In this document: positions 122-60,528 of the stretch, one piece after another | Layout: the number at the start of each line of letters is the position of its first letter | Position numbering within the stretch: the stretch's first letter is position 1 | Source: Chloroflexota bacterium | GTDB lineage: Bacteria > Chloroflexota > Dehalococcoidia > Lucifugimonadales > JADFKI01 | Assembly (NCBI GenBank): GCA_009840355.1 | Contig: VXNZ01000023.1 | Coordinates: 1 to 64,000 of the forward strand | Reading direction: 5' to 3' | DNA: 64,000 nucleotides | Position numbers and translations under genes: made by a program | The notes under the pieces: model-generated | The model's input: only the letters and a program-made list of their open reading frames with translations | What the model was told of the DNA's origin: nothing | The model's database searches: none

Positions 122-273
122 AAGACGATTTCACAAATGCTCTTCGACTACTAGGTTCGCCTTTCCCACGAAAGCGGAAATCCAGAAATCTAGGAATTAC
201 AGGCGTCCTGATGCTTTTCACCCCCACCCTAACCCTCCCCCGTCAAGGGGGAGGGGATTTGTGAAATCGTCTT
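122..273. mobile_element. Family A MITE-like element with target duplication
   Basis: A 152-bp non-coding element. It begins AAGACGATTTCACAAAT and ends with the exact reverse complement of those 17 bases. The 9 bases GTGGATTCA occur immediately before it (113-121) and immediately after it (274-282), a perfect direct repeat as left by a transposase. The interior holds one family C palindromic unit (about 217-258). There is no ORF of its own, so it would be mobilised in trans; no matching transposase is in this window. Confidence 0.8.
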
Positions 274-287
274 GTGGATTCAGGGTA

Positions 288-576
288 TTTCGGTTGTCAC
301 CTTGAACGAAGTGAAGGGTCTAAAATCGCTGTGTGGAAATAAGCCTGTCCGTAGTAAACGCGTTAAGATTTCTCGCTTCGCTCGAAATGACAAGAGTAAA
401 TTGCAAATGACAGGAATAAATGGTATTGCTAATAGGCGTTGGTGTCACATTCAACATTGCTTTTCATGTAGGCTTCACCCCCATCCTAACCTTCCCCCAT
501 CGAGGGGGAAGGGACAAAATGCCTCACTTCAACACGTGTAAGCAATACCGAATAAATTGCATTTGTGAAATCGTCT
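288..576. repeat. Composite family A-related repeat block
   Basis: This non-coding stretch starts with a segment (TTTCGGTTGTCACCTTGAACG) seen again near 31775 and 56608. It carries the common TTTCTCGCTTCGCTCGAAATG segment and a family C unit (about 476-517). It ends with the family A right terminus ATTTGTGAAATCGTCT. The left end does not match the family A terminus, so this is a composite or a variant subfamily. The block ends about 45 bases before the aminotransferase ribosome site and may separate that gene from upstream DNA. Confidence 0.6.
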
Positions 577-6599: not shown

Positions 6600-6722
6600 T
6601 CTTTCTGCCATTCTGAACGCAGCGGAGTGAGGAATCTAAAATAACTGCCATAAGACAACCCCTTTCGTAGTCAAGGATGTTAGATTCCTCACTCCGTTCG
6701 GAATGACAAGGAAAAACTGCCA
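6600..6722. repeat. Large inverted repeat of the 'TTCCGAACGCAGTGAGGAATCT' type
   Basis: The 490-bp gap between the agmatinase and flavin reductase genes holds two opposed copies of one segment. One reads CATTCTGAACGCAGCGGAG...GAGGAATCT (about 6611-6641); the other reads AGATTCCTCACTCCGTTCGG (about 6682-6701). Together they form a long imperfect hairpin. These are the internal segments of families A and B without clear outer ends. A degenerate family C unit lies at about 6525-6565. No gene is seen in the gap. Confidence 0.55.
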
Positions 6723-7937: not shown

Positions 7938-8159
7938 AGACGATTTCACAATCCTTAATGTTGTCATTCCGAACGCAGTGAGGAATCTGAAGCATGTCCC
8001 TGCCTTCGCAGGGACCGTCGCATGCAAACCTGTTTCCGACTTTAGATTTCTCGCTTCGCTCGAAATGACAGGTATAAGTCGCAAATGACGGGAATAAGTC
8101 GCGAATGATAGGTGTAAGTCGCAAATGACGGGAATAAATTGCATTTGTGAAATCGTCTT
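7938..8159. mobile_element. Family A MITE-like element, near-perfect target duplication
   Basis: About 222 bp running from AGACGATTTCACAA to TTGTGAAATCGTCTT. The 9 bases before it (ACATCGATG, 7929-7937) match the 9 after it (ACATCGTTG, 8160-8168) at 8 positions. The interior carries the TTCCGAACGCAGTGAGGAATC segment, TTTCTCGCTTCGCTCGAAATG, and a short tandem array of AAATGACGGGAATAAGTCG-type units. It fills the gap between the RidA gene and the TIM-barrel gene. Confidence 0.75.
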
Positions 8160-15132: not shown

Positions 15133-18100
15133 TTAAACTCCATCCCGCACGCGATATATCGCCGTCTCGCCGTTATCGAATACTTTGTCTAACGCGCCGC
15201 CTAGGTTGTCTGCGAACTTTGCCATGCCTTCGGGGAAGTATATGCGCTCTAGGCGACCCAGATATACATACTTGACGTTGTAGGTTCGCATTAGCGCCAG
15301 GGCTTGCGCGGCGTCCTGCGTTGAGTAGATTGTGCGCACGGCTTCGGTGCGGCGGCCGACTTCGTAGGCGTAGCCGGCGCGCTGCTGCTCTTGATGCCAC
15401 TGCCAGCCGATGACGCTCGGCAAGCCGGTGTACATCGACACGCGCCCAGCCCAGCGATACGACGGCGTTACCGCTTCCAAGACGATGGGCGATCCTTGCA
15501 CATTTCGCTGCAACCAGCGGATGCCTTCGGAGTCTGTCGCGAGGTCTATCAACTCACCGTTGTGCTCTCGGAACGACGAGCCTTCCATGAAGGCGATGCC
15601 GTTCAGCGTCAGCGGCGTAACATAGCCCTCGAACCTGTCGCGCAGCCTGTCCTGTGTGCCCAGCGCCGGGTATATCGCCGCGCTCAGCACCAGCACGGCA
15701 AGCGCAAACTTCCACGCCTGCCTCACGGACGGCATGCGGGCAAGGAAACTGCGCTGCGCGCGGAACAGCCGCCACAGCAGATACGCGGACGCGATGCCAA
15801 GCATCACCCACACTTGCAGGTAGAACTTGAAGATGCTGTTCAGCCGGTCGATGTCGCCTTCCACGCGCAGGAAGTCCAGCCCGACCACGAGCGACAGCGA
15901 CACCAGTGCCAGCATCAGCACGAACCCCAGCTGCGCCCCATCCGGCCTGTCCTTCAGCAGCACGCCCACGCCAACAGCGGCAAGCAGCACTGCCAGCGCG
16001 AAGACGAACGGCACGGTGCTGCCGACGACCCCGGTGAACGCCGCCGTCAGCGCAAGCCCAACCAGCAGCGCGCCGCTAATCACGGCGATGAGCCAGCCAA
16101 CGCTGACAGGTGCGGCCTCCTCGCCGTCCAGCACGTCATAAAGGCGTCCGAACTTGCGCCGGAGCGCAGCGAATTGCCCGCGCACGCCCTCCGCAAGCTC
16201 ATCCACGGCGAACGCGCCGATGATGAACACGAACAACCCAGAAATCGCGAGGAACTGCCACAGCACGGTCGTATTCGTCGTGGACTCCACGCTGTTGTAG
16301 AACGTCTCCCCCGCAAGGTGATACGGCAGGAACGCCGCGAATCCCACTACGACCACGAGTGCCGTCTTGACGCCCGCACGCAGCAACACGAGCAGCGTTA
16401 AGCCGCCGTGTGACAGGAACTCCGCGAAGGTTATTGCGGCAGCGGCGATGATGAGGTATGTGGGCAGGTCCCATGTGTTCAGCGGGGCAAGAGAGCCGAC
16501 GGCGATGCCGAGAATTGCAAGGCGCAGTGTTCCGACGGATACTATTGCGCTGGCAATGCGAGACACCCCCATCCTAACCTTCCCCCATCGAGGGGGAAGG
16601 AACTTTGATGATTCGGATGCAGAGAGCACAACCGCAAGCGACAGTCCCAACACCAGCACCGTGAACGGTATCGCCATCAAGTGCGCGTGCAGGTCCGCGA
16701 ACAAAAATGTGAAGAACGGGAACTCCGTAATCTCATGACCGGGCGGGTCGGGCGGCATCATGCGGCTGCTGCGCCAGAAATCGAACTCGCCGAAAGGCTG
16801 ACCGGACAGCACATTGCCAGCGCCATGCCATACCTGTATTGCGCCGTCCAAATTGCCCAGCACGACCACGAACGCCACACCGACAAGCCCCATTAACACA
16901 GGGGACCACCTCGGCGCGCTGCTCAGAATACCCATGCTCTCGTCCAAGCGGCGCGACGCGGACCGCACTAAGTTGTACACGATGGTGTACACGCCGCCCA
17001 CCGTCAGCGCGAAGAATGTCGGCACTGCGAGGTTGAAAGCGACCACCGGCTCGATGGCGGTCGCGCGGACGAGCAGCGCCGTCAGGAACTGCCCCCAATA
17101 GTAGTAGTTCAGGTAGCCGCCGCCGAACCACGGGTCATACGGCGGCATGATTGTCGAGCGCAGCACCGCGTTGAGATACGCGAAGTCCATCGGCTTCTCA
17201 CCGCCGCGGAACGGATGCCACAGGTCCGGGTTCGCCATTCGTACCAGCACGAACACCAGGAACGCCGCGATGAACACGACCTCCGCCACCACCAGCGCGC
17301 GCCAACGCATCCGCACAAAGTCGATTATCTCGTTCCCACGCACCGCGAATACGCCAAGCGACGCCATGCCCAGTAGCAACATCGCCAGCACAATGGACTG
17401 CCGCGAGAACGCCGCCAGTTGCGTGCTTGCCAGCAGCCAGACGATTAGCCCGACCAGCAGCAGCCCCAGCGCCTTGCCGAACAGGTAGCCCCTGTCCGAC
17501 AGAGGCCGAAATACGACGAATGTCAGCGGCAGCGTGACCAGCGCGATGAGTTCCAGCACGCCAAGCCATGCCAGCACGGGCAAGCGATTCGTCCAGCTGT
17601 CCGTGTGGATGATGCTCGTCCATGTGCCGCCGCTCTGCTGTATCGCCAAGTCCTCCGGCGAGTACACGAGACCCAGCGAGGACTGCCGTTCCCTTGCCGG
17701 CACGTCGTAAGCGTCGGACGGCGCGCTCTGCTCTATCAGCCGCTGTATCTCCTCCGCGCCGAGTCGCCCCGTATTGCGGAATATCAGCACCTTGGGATGG
17801 TCGTACACCGAGAAACTCTCGTCCGCCCAGCCCAGATTCAGGGCGATCGGCGCGGTTGTGTGTCTCTGCAATGCGGCAGGCGCAGGCAGGCTTGGGCGAT
17901 CGAGCGTGTCGTCCACGAATGCGATGCCGAACATCTCAGGATACGATGTCTGCACATTTTCCAGCGTGTATCCGAGCCGTTCCGCGAATAGCAGATTGTA
18001 ATACGCGGTCGATATGGGATAGCGCTCCGGCAAGCGCGGTATCGTACCGTACAGACGGTTGCTGAATAACACCAGATAGTCCGCGTCCGCGAGCGATTCG

Positions 18101-19716
18101 GCTATGAGCGCGGTCTTGGCGTATCGGTCGTTCTCGTACATCGGCAGCTCGCCGAACCGGAAATCTCGCCGCTGATTGGGCAGCGACTCCTCCCAATGTT
18201 CCTTGAGCACGGTCGCTCCTTGGGGCGCGCTGCGGTTCAGCCATTCGCTCGCTCGCACCGCCGTGTGAGTTTGCCCGTACACGCCGTTGAGATACGCCAG
18301 CGCGTAGAACGCCGTGCCGGCGAGTATCAGCGCAATCAGCGCGCCTATTAGGAAGCGTTGTAGTCTGACCTTCACCCCCATCCTAACCTTCCCCCATCGA
18401 GGGAGAAGGGACTTATCATTTGCGGCATCCCACAGTGTCCACAGCAAGCGCGCGCCGAACAGCGTCAGAAGCGGCGCGATGGGCAGCATGTAGCGCATGA
18501 ACTTCACATGGAAGCCGCCGGTTACTATCAAGTACGGCACGACCCAGCAGAGCAACAGCACTTCGATCTGCGTGTGCTTGGAGCGCACGGGCAGCGTGGC
18601 GAGCAGCGCAAGCAGCGATATGCCTGCCGCCGCCGCGACCGCGACCGCGCCGTGCGACACGAATAGGATGCCCGCCGGCAGCACCCAGCCGACAAGCAGG
18701 TATGCGACGCCAATCTTTAACGGCATGCCGCGCAACGATATGTACAGAAGCCCAGCCCACGCAGCCACGCCCAGCGGCAAGCCATACCCCCACACGGCGA
18801 GCTGGCGGATGTGATACAGATACGGCAGCGTATCCGAGTATTGCCGCGTGTACGGGTAGTCGCGGATGCCGCGTATCATCTCGGACTGCTCGCTGACATG
18901 GGTGAAGAAGGTGCTCCAGTCCAACAGCGTGTACGGCTGCGCGATTAGCAATGCGACGACCGCCATCGCGCCGCCGCCTACGACGCCTCGCAATGCCGTC
19001 CGCAAGCGCGTCTCGAAATTATCCGTGTGCGTGCTGCCGTTCAGCGTGCTGCCGTTCAGCGCGAGCGCGAACATGAGATGCGCGATGACGAACGGCGCGA
19101 TGATGGGCAGTTGGCTCGCTTTCGTCGCAAGCCCAAGTCCGATGAGCGCGCCCGCAAGCAGCGAGTCGCGCAGCCTGCCTTCCCGCGCAACCCTGACCAT
19201 GAAGTACAGCGCGGCTATGGCGAGCATCGCCTGCAGCGTGTCCACCGCGAAGTAGTGGCTGAGCTGGATGTGTATGACGGCGAGCGCGGTCAGAGCGGCG
19301 GCGAGCAAGCCCGTCCTGCGGTCGAACACCAGCGTGGCGATACCATAGACGGCGAGTATCGTCAGGATGTCCGCAAGCCCGGATACGGCACGACCGAGCA
19401 CGCGAATATCATTGGCATCATCGAGGAACGGCGCATCGGCAATCTGCACCGCCTTCAGCACATAGAGCGGGAAGCTGCCGTAGTTGAACCAGCGCGGGTT
19501 CCAAGGGCTTTGCTCCGCGTCAAACAGCAGGCGAATATCGCCAAGCGCCGGCGGCGAAACGCCGATAACTCTGTCCAGAATGGCGCGCTCGTCCGGATGC
19601 GGGGTATAAGAGAAGCCCGCATCCCATGCCAGCCCGTAAAAGCGCAATGCGAGGGCAACCGCGAGTATGGCGATGAGCAGGACGCGGTGAGTCAGCAGGC
19701 GGCGGAGACTGGACAT
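15133..19716 (-). CDS. Giant GT39-like plus DUF2298 (YYY) membrane protein
   Basis: A 1527-aa polytopic membrane protein in two halves. Residues 1 to about 660 look like a GT39/PMT-type glycosyltransferase: RFYGLAWDAGFSYTPHPDER opens it, with the Asp-Glu of the first loop in place, then many helices. Residues from about 680 onward are a DUF2298 'YYY' domain with GGGYLNYYYWGQFLTALL. This pairing is known mainly from Chloroflexota and Archaea and probably handles lipid-linked sugars at the cell surface. Two family C repeats are embedded in frame, each giving LPRWGKVRMGV or a near copy (about residues 435-449 and 1038-1052). A short 15-bp tandem duplication encodes LNGSTLNGST. The ATG at 19716 is preferred over a TTG at 19746. 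Confidence 0.85.
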   Translation of the reverse strand: MSSLRRLLTHRVLLIAILAVALALRFYGLAWDAGFSYTPHPDERAILDRVIGVSPPALGDIRLLFDAEQSPWNPRWFNYGSFPLYVLKAVQIADAPFLDDANDIRVLGRAVSGLADILTILAVYGIATLVFDRRTGLLAAALTALAVIHIQLSHYFAVDTLQAMLAIAALYFMVRVAREGRLRDSLLAGALIGLGLATKASQLPIIAPFVIAHLMFALALNGSTLNGSTHTDNFETRLRTALRGVVGGGAMAVVALLIAQPYTLLDWSTFFTHVSEQSEMIRGIRDYPYTRQYSDTLPYLYHIRQLAVWGYGLPLGVAAWAGLLYISLRGMPLKIGVAYLLVGWVLPAGILFVSHGAVAVAAAAGISLLALLATLPVRSKHTQIEVLLLCWVVPYLIVTGGFHVKFMRYMLPIAPLLTLFGARLLWTLWDAANDKSLLPRWGKVRMGVKVRLQRFLIGALIALILAGTAFYALAYLNGVYGQTHTAVRASEWLNRSAPQGATVLKEHWEESLPNQRRDFRFGELPMYENDRYAKTALIAESLADADYLVLFSNRLYGTIPRLPERYPISTAYYNLLFAERLGYTLENVQTSYPEMFGIAFVDDTLDRPSLPAPAALQRHTTAPIALNLGWADESFSVYDHPKVLIFRNTGRLGAEEIQRLIEQSAPSDAYDVPARERQSSLGLVYSPEDLAIQQSGGTWTSIIHTDSWTNRLPVLAWLGVLELIALVTLPLTFVVFRPLSDRGYLFGKALGLLLVGLIVWLLASTQLAAFSRQSIVLAMLLLGMASLGVFAVRGNEIIDFVRMRWRALVVAEVVFIAAFLVFVLVRMANPDLWHPFRGGEKPMDFAYLNAVLRSTIMPPYDPWFGGGYLNYYYWGQFLTALLVRATAIEPVVAFNLAVPTFFALTVGGVYTIVYNLVRSASRRLDESMGILSSAPRWSPVLMGLVGVAFVVVLGNLDGAIQVWHGAGNVLSGQPFGEFDFWRSSRMMPPDPPGHEITEFPFFTFLFADLHAHLMAIPFTVLVLGLSLAVVLSASESSKFLPPRWGKVRMGVSRIASAIVSVGTLRLAILGIAVGSLAPLNTWDLPTYLIIAAAAITFAEFLSHGGLTLLVLLRAGVKTALVVVVGFAAFLPYHLAGETFYNSVESTTNTTVLWQFLAISGLFVFIIGAFAVDELAEGVRGQFAALRRKFGRLYDVLDGEEAAPVSVGWLIAVISGALLVGLALTAAFTGVVGSTVPFVFALAVLLAAVGVGVLLKDRPDGAQLGFVLMLALVSLSLVVGLDFLRVEGDIDRLNSIFKFYLQVWVMLGIASAYLLWRLFRAQRSFLARMPSVRQAWKFALAVLVLSAAIYPALGTQDRLRDRFEGYVTPLTLNGIAFMEGSSFREHNGELIDLATDSEGIRWLQRNVQGSPIVLEAVTPSYRWAGRVSMYTGLPSVIGWQWHQEQQRAGYAYEVGRRTEAVRTIYSTQDAAQALALMRTYNVKYVYLGRLERIYFPEGMAKFADNLGGALDKVFDNGETAIYRVRDGV
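16563..16602 (-). repeat. Family C unit in frame inside the DUF2298 gene
   Basis: Plus-strand text is ACACCCCCATCCTAACC then TTCCCCCATCGAGGGGGAA, matching the intergenic copies at about 476-517. Read on the coding strand it gives SSKFLPPRWGKVRMGVSR with no stop or frameshift. It lies in a loop between two hydrophobic stretches of the DUF2298 half. Confidence 0.85.
18371..18413 (-). repeat. Second family C unit in frame inside the DUF2298 gene
   Basis: Plus-strand text TTCACCCCCATCCTAACC followed by TTCCCCCATCGAGGGAGAAG. The coding strand reads DKSLLPRWGKVRMGVKVR, in the same reading frame of the repeat as the copy 1.8 kb away, in a loop of the GT39-like half. Confidence 0.85.
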
Positions 19717-19939
19717 AAAGGAGTTCGTGGGATACTTGATGTTCAACCTGATGTGTAAAGCCTGATGTGTAGAGAAAGATGTCAGGCAGTTACAACCCTT
19801 GACACTAAATTACAACATTAGGTAATCTGCGTTCAAGAAATACTGCCCGGCATTACTTCTATGCCACTATGGCAATCTATGCGTATCCCGATTGGGCGAA
19901 TTTTATAGGCTGCATTATTCTTTTAGTAGGCGCATGCCA

Positions 19940-22655: not shown

Positions 22656-22838
22656 AAGACGATTTCATAAATCCCCAATGTTGTCATTCCGAACGCAGTT
22701 AGGAATCTGAAGCTTGTCCCTGCGAAGGCAGGGATCGTTGCATTCAAACCTGTTTCCGACTTTAGATTTCTCGCTTCGCTCGAAATGACAGGTATAAATT
22801 GCAAATGACAGGTATGTATTGCATTTGTGAAATCGTCT
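22656..22838. mobile_element. Family A MITE-like element upstream of pheS
   Basis: 183 bp from AAGACGATTTCATAAAT to CATTTGTGAAATCGTCT, with the shared internal segments. No target duplication is visible (TTATAGGGA against ATCCATCCA), so it is older or recombined. It occupies most of the 450-bp gap between the DUF3500 gene and pheS. Confidence 0.7.
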
Positions 22839-31769: not shown

Positions 31770-32022
31770 CAGCGCATTTCGGTTGTCACTCTGAACGAAG
31801 TGAAGGGTCTAAAATCGCTGTGTGGAAACAAGCCCGCCCGTGAGACGATTTCACAAATCCCTAGTGTTGTCATCTCACGCTGTCTTTGTCATTCGGCGCT
31901 CTTTTTTGTCATTCCGAACGCAGTGAGGAATCTGAAGCATGTCCTTGCGAAGGCAGGGATCGTTGCATGCAAACCTGTTTCCGACTTTAGATTTCTCGCT
32001 TCGCTCGAAATGACATGAGCAA
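31770..32022. repeat. Composite family A-type repeat block
   Basis: It begins with TTTCGGTTGTCACTCTGAACG and GTGGAAACAAGCCCGCC, then a family A left end (AGACGATTTCACAAAT at 31843) and the shared internal segments. No right terminus is found before the permease gene. The gap of 380 bases between convergent genes holds no other feature. Confidence 0.6.
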
Positions 32023-32067
32023 TCGAAAGACCCTAACCCTGTCCATCGATGTCAATTACTCGCCTCT

Positions 32068-40119: not shown

Positions 40120-40319
40120 CATTTCCTCTGTCATTCCGCGCAGCCATCCCCATCTGTCATTCCGAAACGCAGTGAGGAATCTAAATTCGTTGCATTTTCA
40201 GCCTGTTTCAGACTTTAGATTTCTCGCTTCGCTCGAAATGACAAGGATGAATTGCCGAAATGACAGGTATAAATTGCATTTGTGAAATCGTTTTTTTGAT
40301 TAGGTTCTGTTGACATTCC
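40120..40319. repeat. Family A right end and family B left end between nirB and nasA
   Basis: The shared internal segments (TCATTCCGAAACGCAGTGAG; TTTCTCGCTTCGCTCGAAATG) lead to a family A right terminus (CATTTGTGAAATCG, about 40278-40291). Ten bases later a family B left terminus GGTTCTGTTGACATTCC follows TA (40301-40302). Its right end is missing, so it is truncated. No gene lies in the gap between nirB and nasA. Confidence 0.55.
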
Positions 40320-42541: not shown

Positions 42542-42733
42542 AGCAATTCCTCCCCAAAGTGGGCCCGCTTCGTCGTGAACTTACACTAACGCCCAACCGT
42601 TGCCGTTGTGTTGCAAGCGTGTTAAAAGTCTGTGACATTGCGGGGAGGAGGAATTGACATCAATGGACAGGGCGGGGCGGACGGGCAGGATGTTGTCTTT
42701 CCCCGGTCAAGAGACTGACAGGGGTATGGTATA

Positions 42734-42772
42734 GTCCCTTCCCCCCTGAGGGGGAAGGTTGGGATGGGGGCG
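42734..42772. repeat. Family C palindromic unit, reverse orientation
   Basis: TCCCTTCCCCCCTGAGGGGG followed by AAGGTTGGGATGGGGGCGA is the reverse-oriented family C unit. It lies in the 346-bp gap between nasA and the foldase gene; nothing else is seen there apart from this unit. Confidence 0.65.
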
Positions 42773-42887
42773 AAAATCGTTGCCCGCCAACCATTATCGC
42801 TTCCCGCAAGTGCTTGAAATCCTAGCACATACCCCTGTCAGCCCATTGATTGGGAAAAGGGGGACTTGCGCAACCGCGATGTTCTCG

Positions 42888-45645: not shown

Positions 45646-45861
45646 AAGACGATTTCACAAATGCAATTTATACCTGTCATTTGCGGTCTATACCTGTCAT
45701 TTCGGGTGAAGCGAGAAATCTGGAGTCGGAAACAGGTTTGCATGCGACGAATTTCAGATTCCTCACTGCGTTCGGAATGACAACAATGGGGTTTCGGAAT
45801 GACAGGGAAACTGCGTTCGGAATGACATTATAAGCGTATCTGGTGAAATGTCCACAGAACC
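45646..45861. mobile_element. Hybrid element with a family A left end and a family B right end
   Basis: Left end AAGACGATTTCACAAATGC is family A. Right end GAAATGTCCACAGAACC followed by TA (45862-45863) is family B. The right half matches the family B element at 60275 (shared ATAAGCGTATCTGGTGAAATG). It lies just upstream of rpsF. Either one family inserted into the other or the two recombined through the shared interior. Confidence 0.6.
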
Positions 45862-52498: not shown

Positions 52499-52609
52499 CC
52501 AACAATCGAATATGCGCGGGGGGAGCTTGGTTTGCCAGGCTGAGAGGCTCCGATTTTTTGGAGCGACCCCAATAACCTGATCTGGGTAATTCCAGCGTAG
52601 GGATGTTGG
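52499..52609 (+). promoter_or_regulatory. TPP (thiamine pyrophosphate) riboswitch
   Basis: Core conserved blocks are in order: GGGGGGAGC, GGCTGAGAGGCTCC, GACCCC, ACCTGATCTGGGTAATTCC and CAGCGTAGGGA. P1 is CCAACA (52499-52504) with TGTTGG (52604-52609). P3 is extended by GGCTCC pairing with GGAGC around TTTTTT. These are the hallmarks of the THI element. A terminator follows at 52630, so TPP would switch off the downstream symporter gene by transcription termination. Confidence 0.95.
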
Positions 52610-52629
52610 TTCTCTTATTATTTTGCAAG

Positions 52630-54273: not shown

Positions 54274-54312
54274 TTTTACCCCCATCCTAACCTTCCCACT
54301 CAGGAGAACGGG
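54274..54312. repeat. Family C unit
   Basis: TTTTACCCCCATCCTAACC then TTCCCACTCAGGAGAACGGG, a partly decayed family C unit after the symporter gene. The stretch 54200-54524 otherwise holds one small ORF (54323-54460) and a CTATCCTAT-type tandem (about 54461-54500). Confidence 0.55.
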
Positions 54313-54322
54313 GCATCTGGGG

Positions 54323-56605: not shown

Positions 56606-56764
56606 GGGATCTTTCGGTTGTCCCCCTGAACGAAGTGAAGGGTCTAAAATCGTGTGGAAACAAGCCTGTCCATAGTCAACGCGTTTAGATTTCTCGCTTC
56701 GCTCGAAATGACAAGGATGAATTGCCGAAATGACAGGTATAGATCGCATCTGTGAAATCGTCTC
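56606..56764. repeat. Family A-related repeat
   Basis: Left part TTTCGGTTGTCCCCCTGAACG, shared with 288 and 31775, then TTTCTCGCTTCGCTCGAAATG and a right terminus CATCTGTGAAATCGTCT. The left end again lacks the family A terminus, supporting a separate subfamily. Found between ilvE and the VOC gene. Confidence 0.6.
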
Positions 56765-57320: not shown

Positions 57321-57505
57321 AAGACGATACCCGATCGCAGTCGGGCACATGCTTCACAAATGCAATTTATACTTGTCGTTTCGCCTTTCATCTGTCATTT
57401 CGAGCGAAGCGAGAAATCTAAAGTCGTAAACAAGTTTGCATGCAACGATTTCAGATTCCTCACTGCGTCCGGAATGACAACATTAGGGAATTGTGAAATC
57501 GTCTT
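57321..57505. mobile_element. Family A MITE-like element with a hairpin insert in one end
   Basis: The left terminus is split: AAGACGAT (57321-57328) and TTCACAAATGC (from 57353) flank exactly 24 bases that contain CCCGA-TCGCAG-TCGGG. The right terminus is intact (TTGTGAAATCGTCTT). Flanks ATCGATTGT and ATCGATGTA are near-duplicates. The target motif is the reverse complement of that used by the copy at 7938. Confidence 0.7.
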
Positions 57506-60275: not shown

Positions 60276-60433
60276 GCTCTGTGGACATTTCGAAGATAGC
60301 TCTAATTTCCTTGTCATTTCGAGCGAAAGCGAGAAATCTAAAGTCTAAAATAGGCCTATATGCAACTATTTTAGATTCCTCACTGCGTTCGGAATGACAT
60401 AATAAGCGTATCTGGTGAAATGTCCACATATGC
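60275..60433. mobile_element. Family B MITE-like element at the serS stop
   Basis: Left end GGCTCTGTGGACATTTC follows TA at 60273-60274; right end GAAATGTCCACATATGC is followed by TA at 60434-60435. 159 bp, non-coding, with CATTTCGAGCGAAAGCGAG and TTCCTCACTGCGTTCGGAAT inside. The serS stop codon TAG uses the flanking TA and the first G of the element. Confidence 0.65.
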
Positions 60434-60444
60434 TAGTCAGTCCA

Positions 60445-60528
60445 GTACCCTCTCCCTTTGGAAGAGGGTTAGGGTGAGGGTAAAACCCCTTCCCTCCTTG
60501 ATGGGATAAGGTTAGGATGGGGATGAAG
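60445..60528. repeat. Two family C-like units, head to head
   Basis: ACCCTCTCCCTTTGGAAGAGG with GTTAGGGTGAGGG, then CCCCTTCCCTCCTTGATGGG with AAGGTTAGGATGGGGATG. Both are C-type palindromes and lie between the serS element and the DUF2339 gene. Confidence 0.5.

Follow-up and report, generated by a model that had tools for sequence, protein, structure and literature searches.

The DUF2298 gene of a marine Chloroflexota bacterium carries two copies of a short hairpin repeat, here termed family C, which are both read in the same frame, encode the peptide PRWGKVRMGV and leave the gene uninterrupted. This situation is in all likelihood explained by a spreading hairpin repeat, two in-frame copies of which are tolerated in variable loops of the protein. 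The gene is located in the window, as the complete analysed stretch of 64,000 nucleotides will be called; the genome to which it belongs is designated G000, its congeners are G001, G002, G003 and G004, and G008 belongs to another family of the same order. Among named homologues, those nearest to the host protein come from SAR202/Dehalococcoidia MAGs.

The host ORF may start either with an ATG at position 19716 or with a TTG further upstream at 19746, yielding products of 1527 or 1537 amino acids, respectively, and its frame is open throughout. The product is a large membrane protein with a PMT_2-like N-terminal half and a DUF2298/TIGR03662 (Chlor_Arch_YYY) C-terminal half. As judged from a Pfam profile search, it matches PF10060 (DUF2298) with 365.6 bits (E 6e-109), well above the cut-off of 27.8, as well as PMT_2, while its NCBIfam score for TIGR03662 amounts to 553.8 bits at a curated cut-off of 300.25. 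The N-terminal half is modelled with a GT-C glycosyltransferase fold, oligosaccharyltransferases being its nearest structural relatives in a Foldseek search of the AlphaFold model (E 3e-10, at low TM-scores of about 0.4); the same kind of search with the model of the DUF2298 half gave no significant match among solved structures.

With a length of about 44 bp, the REP/MITE-like family C repeat has the consensus TTCACCCCCATCCTAACCTTCCCCC-ATCRA-GGGGGAAGGGACTT. It consists of a conserved, unpaired head (TTCACCCCCATCCTAA) and a 9-bp hairpin with the arms CCTTCCCCC and GGGGGAAGG and a 5-nt loop, which folds as DNA at -11.1 kcal/mol; a recognisable right arm is kept in 80 of the 87 copies examined. 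In both G000 and G046 the conserved core spans about 44 bp, and in G004 at most about 85 bp. As regards the terminal inverted repeats and target-site duplications typical of MITEs, a hairpin was all that was seen, and the tetramers GTAG and CGTC are absent from both strands of the consensus. A search of the window against Rfam returned no family covering the repeat; the window also contains a TPP riboswitch at 52509-52620 (RF00059, 66.8 bits).

Using a 19-mer core with up to two mismatches, 91 copies were counted genome-wide in G000, a number that varies with the mismatch limit chosen, and a reversed-pattern control gave 0. The distribution within the order is patchy: the repeat is present in 28 of 60 relatives, reaching about 250 copies in G004 and 202 in G046, whereas G003, a member of the window's genus, has 0. 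Exact cores were found in 8 of 400 genomes sampled across the phylum, with few copies apiece outside G000. A dense run of about 25 exact copies in a single orientation occurs in G004 (L197-L200, G004:C1:12528-76325), part of it arranged in 229-bp tandem units. The intergenic copies of the window (Table 1) had been placed at 217, 476, 42734, 54274 and 60445 in the first-pass annotation; the first four positions stand, while the element at 60445 turned out to be a weaker, related variant adjoining the copy at 60507. Further dispersed repeat families of the AGATTTCTCGCTTCGCTCGAAATGACA and GACGATTTCACAAAT types are present in the window and are often joined in arrays.

Table 1. Coordinates of the host gene, repeats and associated features (positions refer to the window unless another locus is named).
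Feature	Position	Strand	Remarks
Host gene, DUF2298 ORF	15133-19746	minus	ORF list, Pfam, NCBIfam, AlphaFold, Foldseek
Family C, site 1	18370-18412	+	Gene reads reverse complement; encodes KSLLPRWGKVRMGV; loop near residues 444-458
Family C, site 2	16561-16603	+	Encodes FLPPRWGKVRMGV; loop near residues 1049-1061
Family C, intergenic	473-515	+	Perfect 35-nt core
Family C, intergenic variant	214-258	+	CCCCACCCTAACCCTCCCCC...
Family C, intergenic	42732-42774	-	
Family C, intergenic	54274-54316	+	Degraded right arm
Family C, intergenic	60486-60527	-	
Related palindrome (CCTCACCCTAACCCTCT type)	60445-60484	-	Adjoins 60486 copy; 3 mismatches to family C core
Dispersed repeats, AGATTTCTCGCTTCGCTCGAAATGACA/GACGATTTCACAAAT types	361-401, 6677-6717, 8039-8079, 22759-22799, 31984-32024		
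Dispersed repeats, AGATTTCTCGCTTCGCTCGAAATGACA/GACGATTTCACAAAT types	40212-40252, 45751-45791, 56682-56722, 57448-57488, 60368-60408		
L083 ORF, multi-copy family member	L083 2312-3445 (G000:C56:121111-122241)		
G004 unit of multi-copy gene family	L205 15745-16738		

Regarding the two copies inside the DUF2298 gene, initially reported at 16563 and 18371, the one at site 2 has a perfect 35-nt core and the one at site 1 deviates from it by a single mismatch; matches to this core are not expected by chance (none in 100 shuffles). PRWGKVRMGV is encoded in the same frame at residues 449-458 (window 18373-18402) and 1052-1061 (window 16564-16593) as counted from the TTG start, or 10 residues less from the ATG at 19716, and the residues given previously (about 435-449 and 1038-1052) are consistent with these values once the offset is taken into account. 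In AlphaFold2 models built from 34-row alignments, both inserts appear as low-pLDDT segments flanked by confident helices (pLDDT of the block about 63 at site 1 and below 50 at site 2), and their predicted placement is in loops, as had been proposed from the sequence, here between membrane helices.

Several other family C copies occupy contig ends in the G000 assembly, which raises the question of whether a repeat-driven misassembly may have put the element into the gene. Such an artefact is extremely improbable, since both copies are interior to a 186-kb contig, the 1537-residue ORF remains open and the flanks of each insert align with homologues on either side; moreover, chance joins would rarely keep the frame twice.

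The insert at site 1 is missing in the relatives, as had been anticipated. When the window protein was aligned with 66 loci, among them the window gene itself (L086), the block NDKSLLPRWGKVRMG proved to be a 14-residue addition carried by the window protein alone, and in G001, G003 and G004 the motif LWDRAA runs directly into the next helix with 14 residues fewer. Both inserts together occur in one genome, G000. The congener loci are too diverged to mark the exact insertion ends or a target-site duplication. Congeners share only about 74-79% identity in the host protein, and because the inserted copies are nevertheless near the consensus, the insertions look recent, and probably are.

The genomic distribution of the repeat shows a strong depletion in coding sequence. 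Sorted with a simple home-made codon-usage gene finder, 77 of the 91 copies in G000 are intergenic, 7 are partial at an ORF edge and 7 lie within ORFs, at a coding density of about 80%. Three of the latter are at ORF 5' ends and one is in a spacer between phage-type genes, and these four were rejected as apparent coding copies; about three are truly internal, two of them in the DUF2298 gene and one in the L083 ORF. In G004, all 66 copies in the 400 kb examined are intergenic, and in G046 this applies to 83 of 93, with 5 partial copies and 5 in ORFs, four of which lie at most 7 residues into the ORF, the fifth being at residue 47. The binomial probabilities for this depletion are below 1e-40, with the copies being not fully independent of each other. 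The rejected spacer copy belongs to L020 2-2089 (G000:C50), where genes for a phage-type head protease and a major capsid protein form one ORF across the repeat-bearing spacer; these genes are separate ORFs in several relatives, e.g., G001 and G004, and the counterpart of the spacer in G003 contains a CCTTCAACAAGCTCAGGACAGG-type repeat and is likewise open.

These data are consistent with a scheme in which family C spreads within the genomes of one Dehalococcoidia order and inserts widely, presumably mobilised by a putative enzyme or factor acting in trans. Most coding insertions would be harmful and purged by selection, so that the repeat is almost confined to intergenic DNA, and the survivors would be rare insertions in variable loops that have an open frame and a length divisible by three. 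In the G000 lineage, two copies probably entered the DUF2298 gene where it encodes variable loops, presumably between membrane helices, each resulting in a longer loop rather than a frameshift because its orientation and register were open and a multiple of three bases was added. We infer that the DUF2298 inserts are neutral. Against this scheme, no transposase was linked to the repeat, and two copies in the same gene, among so few coding copies overall, are more clustered than uniform insertion would predict. As for the mobilising factor, RAYT was rejected as a candidate, since Y1_Tnp is missing in G000 and in the copy-rich G004 and G046; no Y1_Tnp/RAYT was found in G000, G001, G004, G012 and G046, and any such gene was present in 6 of 60 relatives. 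A replication-strand polarity of the repeat was dismissed because exact copies occur on both strands of G046 in local runs, and a role as terminator because a preference of the copies for positions downstream of genes, seen in G046, is missing in G004.

Repeats have landed more than once at the second site, referred to as loop 2, where unrelated ones are found in related species. The span between LHAH and NTWD comprises 64-74 residues in all five congeners, compared with a median of 51 in other homologues. In G001, loop 2 contains NSPHPDPLPRGEG, which is derived from a different palindrome with 28 copies in that genome and without any in G000, G003, G004 and G008 at up to one mismatch. The loop of G008 contains SFDKLRTSG, encoded by CCTTCGACAAACTCAGGACGA, a third type of repeat with 3 copies in this genome including the one in loop 2 (up to one mismatch). 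The loops of G002 and G003 are also long, but their sequences were rejected as repeats, being single-copy in their own genomes. Different repeats may have been acquired by related species at this position because loop 2 accepts very different sequences.

Loop 2 of G004 contains KSHLPQGGKVRA, whose DNA shares 25 of 32 positions with the family C consensus, in the frame and with the internal spacing of G000, compared with at most 20 matches in 30 codon-shuffled genes and at most 18 in other homologues. This C-like insert (L089) is decayed and split in frame by about 24 nt with the inverted repeat TTGGCATGCGCTTGCCGAA, of which no close copies were found in 400 kb of G004. The presence of the same peptide in homologues from repeat-free genomes, regarded beforehand as evidence against an insertion, was not observed, and the sole C-like homologue is that of G004 with its many copies. 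The G004 insert could go back to one old insertion shared with G000, which leads to a different timing of the proposed insertions: a single ancestral insertion into loop 2 that decayed in G004, was kept in G000 and disappeared or gave way to other sequence in G001, G002 and G003. Shared place, frame and internal spacing agree with this course of events, and gene conversion from other copies could have renewed an old copy. However, the G000 copy has the perfect core of young copies, although the proteins of G000 and G004 diverge by about 25%; in addition, a tree built on the host protein alone (one gene) shows G004 as basal in the genus and pairs G000 with G002, whose loop 2 has no C sequence, and G001 holds another family. 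A single ancestral event is therefore possible, but rather unlikely. From the tree topology, at least the loop-2 insertions of G000 and G001 are separate events.

Since the protein tolerates the inserts, it had been suggested that the repeat was selected for a stop-free frame, which the data do not support. Three of six frames are open in the consensus, while shuffled versions have a mean of 3.6 and random genomic 44-mers one of 4.2, so there is no sign of open-frame selection, and few of the 91 copies are in genes, as against about 80% expected by chance. Moreover, at least two different frames of family C are in use within genes, the second one occurring in the multi-copy gene family to which the L083 ORF belongs. 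This uncharacterised family gave no Pfam match and has 16, 26, 2, 0 and 47 tblastn matches in G000, G001, G002, G003 and G004, respectively, its copy number tracking that of family C within the genus. Several of the G004 copies belong to scattered units, each about 1 kb long, which share about 92% identity and have no recognisable transposase; the family was rejected as carrier of the repeat, since the distances between them vary without constant linkage in G004. In its paralogues in G000 and G001, the C palindrome is translated into TPSPSTGEGWDGGE or a variant thereof. In intergenic copies this frame has a TAG, replaced by TGG or CAG in all five distinct coding copies seen, indicating that a stop-bearing frame turned coding after mutation of the stop; the hairpin is still intact in most of these paralogues (L083, L250, L253, L255 and L257).

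It may be argued that the repeat-encoded peptides are useful, e.g., for binding or regulation via the loops, and that family C has been selected for its coding frame. Domestication of this kind would account for the same-frame pair in the DUF2298 gene and for the palindrome being kept in frame, with TAG changed to TGG or CAG, in the multi-copy family of G000 and G001. Yet it appears improbable, as the site-1 peptide occurs in no other homologue, coding copies are rare, the consensus is no more open than shuffles, different frames are used, and the sequence of loop 2 is unrelated in most congeners. A broader proposal, which we consider doubtful at present, is that several unrelated short palindrome families time and again supply proteins of this order with new peptide segments, making repeat-borne loop growth an active route of protein change; if true, repeats would repeatedly enter one loop across species and, in the multi-copy gene family, become fixed once an internal stop had been lost.

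Palindromic repeats inserted in frame have been reported mainly in Rickettsia, Wolbachia, enterobacteria and certain REP-rich genomes, and are now also seen in uncultured Chloroflexota; no literature on family C in this phylum was found among the open-licence papers covered. Loop 2 offers a natural replicate experiment, with one site, several lineages and several repeat families. On the practical side, a peptide such as PRWGKVRMGV, PHPDPLPRGEG or FDKLRTSG within a predicted protein can stem from repeat DNA instead of being a conserved domain.

The likeness to Rickettsia palindromic elements (RPEs) noted in the first-pass annotation applies to the manner of working. RPEs have been described from Rickettsia and Wolbachia (PMC2229807, PMC3767692) as palindromes of 105-146 bp that are translated in frame as part of Rickettsia genes; a gmk product with an RPE insert was still active when tested (PMC2229807). 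One locus in orthologues can hold different RPE groups, and a substantial share of the RPE-1 to RPE-3 copies lies inside ORFs (PMC3767692). Family C likewise sits in frame within a protein gene without disrupting it, and loop 2 likewise holds different repeat groups in orthologues. In contrast, it is set apart from RPEs by its length of about 44 bp (up to about 85 bp in G004) with a 9-bp hairpin, instead of a long stem-loop of about 100-150 bp, by its scarcity in ORFs (7 of 91 copies, about three of them truly internal, and 0 of 66 in G004) and by its host, a member of the Dehalococcoidia (Chloroflexota) and not of the Rickettsiales. The GTAG and CGTC REPs resemble it in being short hairpins (stem of 8-9 bp and loop of 4-5 nt in CGTC REPs) with many, mainly extragenic copies and occasional in-frame ones. 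Intragenic REP units and double insertions in one ORF have already been reported, as have different REPs at about one site of Xanthomonas recB, and REP insertions in loops were suggested to be possibly neutral (PMC3733652). However, family C is without a GTAG or CGTC tag, and its conserved head is long and unpaired; unlike GTAG REPs, it is not accompanied by a RAYT in the carrier genomes examined, a feature shared with CGTC REPs, which also lack a dedicated RAYT. The enterobacterial RU-1/ERIC, RU-2 and RU-3 and the Correia/NEMIS elements of Neisseria (about 100-170 bp; PMC2759123, PMC2229807) are also small non-autonomous repeats found in frame in some genes, but they are larger and mostly have terminal inverted repeats, often with TA ends, whereas family C forms a single short hairpin. 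Since it works like RPEs and REPs but lacks defining features of each, family C should be regarded as a new repeat family within a kind already known, and the unusual feature of this case is the occurrence of unrelated repeats in one loop across related species.
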